A stretch of 61,905 nucleotides of DNA from Rhizomucor pusillus. Taxonomy: Eukaryota; Mucoromycota; Mucoromycetes; Mucorales; Lichtheimiaceae. Below are positions 10,045 to 12,046 of this stretch, piece by piece. A model generated the notes under the pieces. It saw nothing but the letters and a program-made list of their open reading frames with translations, had not been told where the DNA came from and did not search any database. The stretch lies in contig FWWN02000212.1 of assembly GCA_900175165.2 (NCBI GenBank), positions 1-61,905 on the forward strand, written 5' to 3'. The position numbers and the translations under genes are program-made. Every line of letters begins with the position of its first letter. The stretch's first letter is position 1.

Positions 10045-12046
10045 ATGACAACCACGGCCGGTTTACGTTCACGAAAGCGTGACAACGAGTCGATACACAC
10101 CGCGGCAGAACCTTCAGACAAAGATCTGCCAAATGTCAAGAACATTCAGCAGTCGACAGCTGGATCGCGATTCGTCATCTTTTTGCTATGCTTGTTCGTG
10201 CGACTATGCTGCGCTTGGTTAACGCGAACATATGACAACCCCGACGAATACTGGCAGGCACAAGAAGTAGCACACCGCATGGTTTTTGGATATCCTTTTT
10301 TTTCTATTGTGTCCGTGTACAAAAAACACGTTGTCACAGCCTTTGATGATCATCAAGTGCCTTGACTGGGTTTCATATATACTTACGGGTATCTTACCTG
10401 GGAGTGGACTGAGCGGATTCGAAGCTTTGCGCATCCAGCCGTTTTTGCAGCCGTATACCGCATCCTAGCATGGATCGGTGCTGAAAACACTGTTATTCAG
10501 GCAAGGAAATATCTGCTTCAATAGCTTTGTTGCATACCGGCATTAATGTTGTAACATTAGCTCTGGGCTCCAAAGTACTTTCAGGCTATTTTGGCAGCAG
10601 TGGCAGATGTAGGAACTTACACGCTCGGCAAACGTGTGCTGGGCGACAACATTGCACCTTACATTGTAAGTCTTACCAGCTATACCTTTCGTCGTCAAAT
10701 GTATCAGTTTAACACATTGCAGCTGTATGTTACCTTGGTTTCTTGGTACAACTTTTTCATGGCTGCTCGTACACTGTCGAACACCATGGAGATGGTGTTG
10801 ACTACCATCGCATTGAACTATTGGCCCCTTTTGGATACGGGCAACAATGCCAACTGGTTGAAGCAAGTACTACAATAATCTATCTGGATGCTTTTCTTTG
10901 TTTACTAATTGATGCTGGATCACAGAAATTACAGAATTGCACTATTTTGGGCATCGCTTGCTTGCGTTATGCGACCCACGAACGCTCTTGTGTGGTTCTA
11001 CTTGGGTATCGACTTGATCGTCAAGTCAAGTAACCGACAAAGATACTCGATCGTTGTGAACGCGCTTCTAATTGTGTAAGTTGACGGTCCATGCCTGGAC
11101 AAGGAACATAAACTCAAAAGTATATCTGATATTTTGCAGAGCTGCAGTACTCTCAGCGAACGTTGCGTTGGATACCTGGATGTACACTGGAAGTTTGGAA
11201 GGGTTATTTAAAAACCCAATCCTTACTCCTGTCAATTTCGTGCGTGTCAATGTCATCAATGCCATATCGCTACTTTACGGCGTACATCCCTGGCACTGGT
11301 ATTTCACGCAAGGCATACCTGTGATCCTGACCACGTTCCTGCCATTTGTCCTTTTCGGTATCCGTGGACGTGATCGCTTCACTGCCAATGCTACGTCAGC
11401 TCGTCGCACACTTTGCAACGTAACCGCTTGGGTACTAGTAGTATACAGCCTGTTGTCACACAAGGAGTTCCGTTTCGTGTATCCCATCGTCCCAATTCTC
11501 TTGGTCTTTGCAGCTGCTGGGCTCTCCCAAGTACCACAACAGTGGAAGAAATGGGCAATACTTTTCATTACAGCGACGCAGGTACCGATGGCGTTATATC
11601 TTTCTCTCTGGCATCAGCGTGGAGTGATGGATGTTACGCTCTGGCTTCGGAGCGAGTCAGCAGAGTCAATTTCATCTGTAGGTATTCTGATGCCATGCCA
11701 TTCAACTCCATGGCAATCAGTTATCCACCAGCCTAACATTTCCACGTGGTTCTTGACGTGTGAGCCGCCCTTGAACCAGCAAGATACCCGTGATTACATG
11801 GATGAAGCAGATATTTTCTACGACGACCCTGTGGATTTCATGGCCAACCAGATGCGAGGATGGCCAGATCGATTGATCCTATTTGAATCGCTTTTAGACA
11901 CACAAAGCAAATCAAATCCAAGCGTCTCTGTGTCGCAGGTCTTGGAGGAAAAAGGATACTCTGAATGCAAACGATTCTTCAACTCACATTTCCATGATGA
12001 TACAAGACGCAGAGGCGACGTCTTGGTGTTCTGCGCCGCTTCGTAG
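10045..12046 (+). CDS. GPI10: GPI mannosyltransferase 3 (Gpi10/PIG-B)
   Basis: ER membrane mannosyltransferase of family GT22. It adds the third, alpha-1,2-linked mannose to the GPI anchor precursor, using dolichol-phosphate mannose. Six exons (10045-10289, 10383-10500, 10561-10665, 10723-10862, 10926-11075, 11140-12046) total 1665 bases, 554 residues, the usual family size. An N-terminal membrane segment is followed by the luminal catalytic motif NPDEYWQAQEVAH with its conserved Asp-Glu. The first junction gives MVFGYGYLTWEWTERIR, a hallmark of the family. SNTMEMVLTT, then MRPTNALVW and HPWHWYFTQGIPV follow among many hydrophobic segments; HKEFRFVYPI lies further on. Splicing is unusual: intron 1 is AT-AC, introns 2 and 4 are GC-AG, introns 3 and 5 are GT-AG. 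Convergent with the LRR gene. Confidence 0.95.
10290..10382 (+). other. U12-type AT-AC intron in GPI10
   Basis: This 93-base intron begins ATATCCTTTT, which fits the minor-spliceosome donor consensus, and ends in AC. The sequence tgccttgac (10358-10366) matches the U12 branch-site consensus TTCCTTRAC at eight of nine positions and lies about 17 bases from the end. No GT-AG choice restores the frame. With AT-AC ends the exons join as GTT TTT GG/T TAC GGG TAT, giving the conserved FGYGYLTWEW. Confidence 0.9.
10501..10560 (+). other. GC-AG intron 2 of GPI10
   Basis: Donor CAG/GCAAGG and acceptor ACATTAG, 60 bases, phase 0. No GT donor lies at the exon end. The join gives ENTVIQ-LWAPKYFQAIL, in the place the family expects. 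Confidence 0.82.
10863..10925 (+). other. GC-AG intron 4 of GPI10
   Basis: Donor GAA/GCAAGT and acceptor GATCACAG, 63 bases. The nearby GT (CAA/GTACTA) would leave the next exon out of frame. The GC donor gives NANWLK-NYRIALFW, and the total coding length then divides by three. Confidence 0.82.

Follow-up and report, generated by a model that had tools for sequence, protein, structure and literature searches.

The window analysed here is a stretch of 61,905 nucleotides on contig C215 of the host genome, which comprises 24.45 Mb in 353 contigs. No Rfam family and no tRNA was matched in the window. The plus strand of positions 10045–12046 contains a gene for GPI10/PIGB, an essential protein in yeast, which consists of six exons of 245, 118, 105, 140, 150, and 907 nt (1665 nt in sum) and encodes a predicted protein of 554 amino acids. 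Residues 45–449 of this protein match the Alg9-like mannosyltransferase family (PF03901; E 6e-99, 332.5 bits versus a cut-off of 23.8), and the match spans the junction of the first two exons at residue 82. Some of the homologues are named GPI mannosyltransferase 3. The best named relatives among the best 120 of 1664 homologues are those of Zychaea mexicana (53% identity), Dichotomocladium elegans, and Radiomyces spectabilis, and the N-terminal piece shares 60% identity with a Lichtheimia ornata protein over 67% of its length. From these relatives, the host is probably a member of the Mucorales, perhaps close to Lichtheimia. The five introns are, in order, of the AT-AC, GC-AG, GT-AG, GC-AG, and GT-AG types. 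The features of the gene, with their basis in parentheses, are as follows.

10045..10289, +, GPI10 exon 1 with the ATG start (gene model, PF03901)
10290..10382, +, predicted U12-type AT-AC intron, 93 nt, phase 2 (motifs, gene model, conserved position)
10290..10298, +, 5' splice site ATATCCTTT, complementary to AAAAAGGG of the host U11 and to AAGGA of U6atac
10358..10366, +, branch site TGCCTTGAC (tgccttgac) with the putative branch A at 10365
10381..10382, +, 3' splice site AC, 17 nt past the branch A
10383..10500, +, GPI10 exon 2, beginning with (G)YGYLTWEW (gene model, homologues)
10501..10560, +, U2-type GC-AG intron (gene model)
10561..10665, +, GPI10 exon 3 (gene model)
10666..10722, +, U2-type GT-AG intron (gene model)
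10723..10862, +, GPI10 exon 4 (gene model)
10863..10925, +, U2-type GC-AG intron (gene model)
10926..11075, +, GPI10 exon 5 (gene model)
11076..11139, +, U2-type GT-AG intron (gene model)
11140..12046, +, GPI10 exon 6 with the stop codon (gene model)

GC-AG introns account for two of the four U2-type introns of the gene (10501–10560 and 10863–10925), with the 5' splice sites GCAAGG and GCAAGT, respectively. When the fourth intron is read as GT-AG from position 10867, the frame is broken, whereas GC-AG from 10863 keeps it open; a start at 10860 also leaves an open frame but corresponds to no known splice-site type.

The first intron of GPI10 and its position in relatives

The first intron begins with ATATCCTTTT at 10290–10299 and contains an exact /ATATCCTT 5' splice site at 10290–10297. 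The branch sites of U12-type AT-AC introns resemble TTCCTTRAY and are located about 10–20 nt before the 3' end. In the GPI10 intron, the branch TGCCTTGACT has the exact core CCTTRAC, with G rather than T as the base preceding CC, and the distance from A10365 to C10382 is 17 nt. The letters described in the initial annotation (the start, the tgccttgac branch site, and the AC end) were all confirmed, and so were its statements that removal of the intron restores the FGYGYLTWEW motif and makes the six-exon coding length divisible by three (1665 nt, 555 codons including the stop). If 10290–10382 is retained, the frame stops within the intron, at codon 107.

The composite pattern of RTATCCTT, 20–90 nt, CCTTRAC, 6–16 nt, and AC has a single match on the two strands of the window, at 10290, and was absent from all 200 windows simulated with a first-order Markov model. 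Its parts are not rare when taken alone, with five matches to RTATCCTT in the window (3.1 expected) and six to the branch-plus-AC pattern (3.6 expected). Introns of at least 40 nt that start at 10200–10299 and end at 10330–10439 were enumerated, allowing GT-AG, GC-AG, AT-AC, AT-AG, and GT-AC ends. The frame between exons 1 and 2 is kept by 45 of these, among which 10290–10382 alone yields FGYGYLTWEW (MVFGYGYLTWEW). Two of the 45 retain both MVFG and TWEW, namely 10290–10382 and 10292–10366, yet the latter inserts six foreign residues.

The best 120 of the 1664 GPI10 homologues were compared at the junction, and 88 of them contain the joined motif as defined by a loose pattern. In five, GYP occurs exactly at the junction: the protein models read into the intron with YPF in Umbelopsis nana, U. 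vinacea, and Phlyctochytrium arcticum and with YPK in Rhizophagus irregularis and R. clarus, although the exons are correctly joined in P0070, another model from R. irregularis. Four others (from U. isabellina, Geosiphon pyriformis, Glomus cerebriforme, and Basidiobolus meristosporus) contain PDEYWQ, with the junction skipped or stopped, and both motifs are absent from the remaining 23, the majority of which start downstream, possibly for other reasons. A separate search with the unspliced reading yielded 14 proteins, including the window's own, one near-identical in exon 1, and one from Lichtheimia ornata. FGYPF, which would correspond to GG-ATATCCTTT if spliced as in the window, is present in all 14; this search favours FGYPF proteins by design and shows their existence in several lineages. 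The 5' splice sites of the relatives are thus deduced from protein translations rather than from their DNA, and the YPK read-ins are compatible with an ATATCC start but not with ATATCCTT.

Because the models of relatives read into the intron with FGYPF at the same place, the GPI10 intron appears to be old in fungi. The position of the AT-AC intron in GPI10 is thus, as judged from these protein models, conserved. The read-ins also suggest that GPI10 protein models break at this junction in several fungal lineages. A metagenomic protein (P0242) has exon 1 in common with the window, but past a T run its reading of the intron changes frame; a one-base difference in the T run, owing to strain variation or a sequencing error, would give this frame.

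Search for minor-spliceosome RNAs and proteins in the host

Genes for U11 and U6atac were identified in the host genome. The U11 gene (C25:94654–94781) scores 75.2 bits versus an Rfam gathering score of 39 and carries AAAAAGGG; the U6atac gene (C293:8029–8123) scores 50.1 bits versus 33 and carries GAAAGGAGAGA and CCCCTTGA. At E values up to 10, the U6atac search returned 13 matches, and the two ranking directly below the U6atac gene are the U6 genes. The U11 and U6atac cut-offs were reached in none of 14 prokaryote control genomes.

U12 was not found in the Rfam search of the host genome at E 0.001. At E values up to 10, there was one match, C104:26801–26913 (L014 1501–1613; 24.7 bits versus a cut-off of 53, E 0.078), which carries AATGAGTAAGGA and TTAATGAGTAAGGATT, a stem-II-like hairpin, the Sm-like sequence AATTTTTT, and a short last stem. 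The same search gave some match in 7 of the 14 prokaryote controls, none over the cut-off, and the fold of the candidate is modestly better than those of its shuffles (z −1.6; 11 of 200 shuffles as good). This segment is likely to be the U12 gene despite its score below the Rfam cut-off, and it was accepted mainly because the host branch sites match it, a match that was not used in finding the gene. An earlier search by the pattern ATGAGTAAGGAAAATNAC with two mismatches gave three matches versus five in the control, none of them Rfam-supported, and was replaced by the Rfam candidate.

U4atac (RF00618) had no match in the host genome at E values up to 10. The U6atac stretch CCCCTTGAGAAGGACGG is the segment where a U4atac-like RNA would pair; a search by the U6atac complement gave two matches versus two in the control, the exact one being the opposite strand of the U6atac gene itself and the other having been read by eye over 200 nt. 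A U4/U4atac k-turn pattern (no host match versus one in the control) retrieved neither U4 nor U4atac and is hence uninformative. As for proteins, the best match to the 48K zinc finger (PF05253) reached 15.2 bits, under the cut-off of 21.1. A human 65K RRM query gave 14 matches in the host genome, of which three were inspected by eye and none was convincing: the best lies in a gene resembling U2B'', and the other two are PABP-like. A human 35K sequence retrieved, among the best 120 of 1950 database proteins, only vertebrate or unnamed ones. The absences of U4atac, 48K, and 65K are weak because the genome search scores best candidates only and ignores introns. The initial annotation had deduced that the host still possesses U11, U12, U4atac, and U6atac and had pointed to the specific proteins as a check. 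This holds for U11 and U6atac, both above their cut-offs, and probably for U12, below its cut-off, whereas U4atac was not found; nor were the 48K zinc finger and 65K in these weak tests. The broader prediction, that of a minor spliceosome retained in the host, is sustained by U11, U6atac, the likely U12, and dozens of similar introns.

Similar candidate introns and the predicted pairing of U12 with branch sites

Genome-wide, RTATCCTT followed by CCTTRAC at a distance of 20–50 nt was found 22 times (reversed pattern, 2) and at 51–81 nt 28 times, GPI10 included (reversed pattern, 5). These 50 exact motif pairs (L025–L074), compared with seven reversed ones, consist of 45 with an AT start and 5 with a GT start. 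Because seven controls amount to about 3.5 per first letter, the five GT matches need no real introns to explain them, but about 40 of the AT matches do. The minor introns of the host thus look almost all AT-AC, with the size of the bias uncertain because the pattern does not capture GT-AG minor introns whose 5' sites are looser. The 50 pairs were then split on a base left free by the pattern, 34 beginning with ATATCCTTT and 16 not. AC occurs 8–20 nt past the branch A in 33 of the 34 versus 7 of the 16, T lies directly before CC in 28 versus 10, and A two bases before CC in 22 versus 4, respectively.

Twenty-nine fused reading frames were built from the 50 matches, and 20 of them, chosen by eye, were scanned against Pfam; the 3' ends in these frames were set by the open frame and the AC distance, so that individual junctions may be misplaced by a few bases. 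A match above the cut-off crosses the junction in 11 of the 20 (Ion_trans, FancD2, TBC, TatD, DCP2 box A, RNB, CLP1_N, LSM12, MIOS, importin N, and Gaa1), that of LSM12 barely so (29.8 versus 29.5 bits). The others include a second TBC crossing below the cut-off, two frames with non-crossing domains (IPK; Ion_trans with a weak EF-hand), and six without a family. By eye, the FANCD2-like intron (L032) has either an AG 3' end or an AC three bases upstream, which adds one residue. The two TBC-domain (RabGAP) genes (L035 and L043, the latter being the one below the Pfam cut-off) are located on different contigs and have a U12-type intron at seemingly the same codon (FFLR^DAMLD and FFMR^DAMLD, respectively), which suggests that they are paralogues retaining a minor intron. 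Two ion-channel gene pieces (L029 and L056; Ion_trans) also contain U12-type AT-AC introns; voltage-gated channels have been named as a family rich in minor introns (PMC6865273).

In the U12 candidate, GUAAGGAUU takes the place of GUAAGGAAA of the Rfam consensus, and the host introns mostly use the branch ATCCTTAAC, so that a shift relative to the Rfam consensus is seen on both sides. The mean energy of the branch duplex in the 34 introns beginning with ATATCCTTT is −9.3 kcal/mol with the host U12 and −7.4 kcal/mol with the Rfam consensus, the host U12 being better in 25, worse in 4, and tied in 5; because CCTTRAC was a constant part of the search pattern, the information lies only in the bases outside it. 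The GPI10 branch TGCCTTGAC is weaker (−6.0 kcal/mol versus the host mean) and departs from the shifted consensus ATCCTTAAC.

From these elements, a path of splicing can be inferred for the GPI10 intron. U11 would recognize ATATCCTTTTT through its AAAAAGGG, and the branch region, with A10365 at its centre, would be bound by U12 (GAGUAAGGAUU) through base pairing; U6atac (AAGGAGAGA) would then displace U11 from the 5' splice site, followed by removal of the 93 nt. They would leave as a lariat, and Gly82 would be restored across the joint. The order of U11, U12, and then U6atac replacing U11 is the textbook one.

Alternative readings and comparison with known systems

Segment 10290–10382 is almost certainly an ancient U12-dependent AT-AC intron in the GPI10/PIGB gene of a Mucorales-like fungus, as judged from the sequence. 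The U12-type reading made in the initial annotation is thus supported by the motifs, the frame, the snRNA genes, and dozens of similar introns. Removal of an AT-AC intron by the major spliceosome, as is the case for the U2-type AT-AC introns of some organisms, would agree with the failure to detect U4atac and two minor-spliceosome proteins (48K and 65K), but this is very improbable for an intron with the U12-type 5' site ATATCCTTT and a U12-type branch 17 nt from AC in a host that possesses U11, U6atac, a likely U12, and dozens of introns of the same kind. It is even less probable that a U2-type intron (GT-AG or GC-AG) has slightly different borders and that the AT-AC motif arose by chance. 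Five GT-AG and 12 GC-AG introns among the 45 keep the frame open, and GPI10 has two GC-AG introns elsewhere; however, none of these 17 retains the FGYGYLTWEW that is joined in 88 of the best 120 of 1664 homologues, and the YPF reading, which corresponds to ATATCCTTT, is common to the models of relatives at the same position. The least probable reading is that of a broken gene, in which the 93 nt remain unspliced and either the encoded protein is truncated or the locus is misassembled. The stop at codon 107 in the unspliced frame would fit it, as would the models of relatives that stop or read in there too, but the 554-codon frame is otherwise open and conserved, and the same break in several species would be expected of annotation that disallows AT-AC introns.

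Beyond the U12-dependent AT-AC intron itself, the near-exclusive AT starts and the U12-branch shift are less expected and are leads towards a new variant. Taken alone, a minor spliceosome that handles almost only AT-AC introns is probable, and a co-shift of U12 GUAAGGAUU and the branch ATCCTTAAC from the Rfam consensus is somewhat likely, though less so. That a lineage including Lichtheimia combines a nearly AT-AC-only minor spliceosome, a co-shifted U12 and branch, and the loss of a recognizable U4atac is improbable as a joint reading; in its last part, the delivery of U6atac would fall to either a highly divergent U4atac or U4.

The initial annotation overstated the rarity of such introns in fungi: minor introns have been described in Rhizopus, Phycomyces, Rhizophagus, and Basidiobolus, as have minor snRNAs in Lichtheimia. 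No earlier report of the GPI10/PIGB intron was found in searches of an open library of papers. Minor splicing in Mucorales is already in print (PMC4133162, PMC2846911), and the GPI10 intron therefore joins a known kind, to which it contributes a well-supported AT-AC intron whose position in a core gene is ancient. With about 40 candidate minor introns, the host could serve as a small-genome fungus for minor splicing. The shifted U12-branch pairing is open to covariation testing, and the question of U4atac is common to the host and Lichtheimia.

In an EST survey using two methods, 1 AT-AC and 2–3 GT-AG minor introns were found in Rhizopus oryzae and 8–9 AT-AC and 8–12 GT-AG minor introns in Phycomyces blakesleeanus (PMC2846911). 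The host belongs to the same order and has the same intron class, with ATATCCTT 5' sites and U12-type branches, but differs in the proportion of AT to GT starts (45 to 5 among its 50 exact motif pairs), a comparison that is rough because the methods differ. In Rhizophagus irregularis and Basidiobolus meristosporus, 205 and 249 minor introns, respectively, have been reported (PMC10639083), and like the host, both are early-diverging fungi with many minor introns. In Rhizophagus, the minor proteins named are 65K, 35K, 25K, and 20K, all four minor snRNAs were found, including U4atac, and the consensus motifs are reported to follow those of animals and plants closely (PMC10639083), whereas the branch consensus of the host is shifted to ATCCTTAAC. 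The minor-spliceosome RNAs of the host are much like those of Lichtheimia corymbifera, in which four of the five AT-AC splicing RNAs were found, the third stem of U12 is reduced, and the second half of U6atac is divergent (PMC4133162). U4atac, which is present in other basal fungi, was undetected in both the assembly and the reads of Lichtheimia, and U4 is likewise absent from its assembly (PMC4133162). The section of that report on minor-spliceosome RNAs and the legend of its Figure S2 do not list introns, GPI10, or branch sites.
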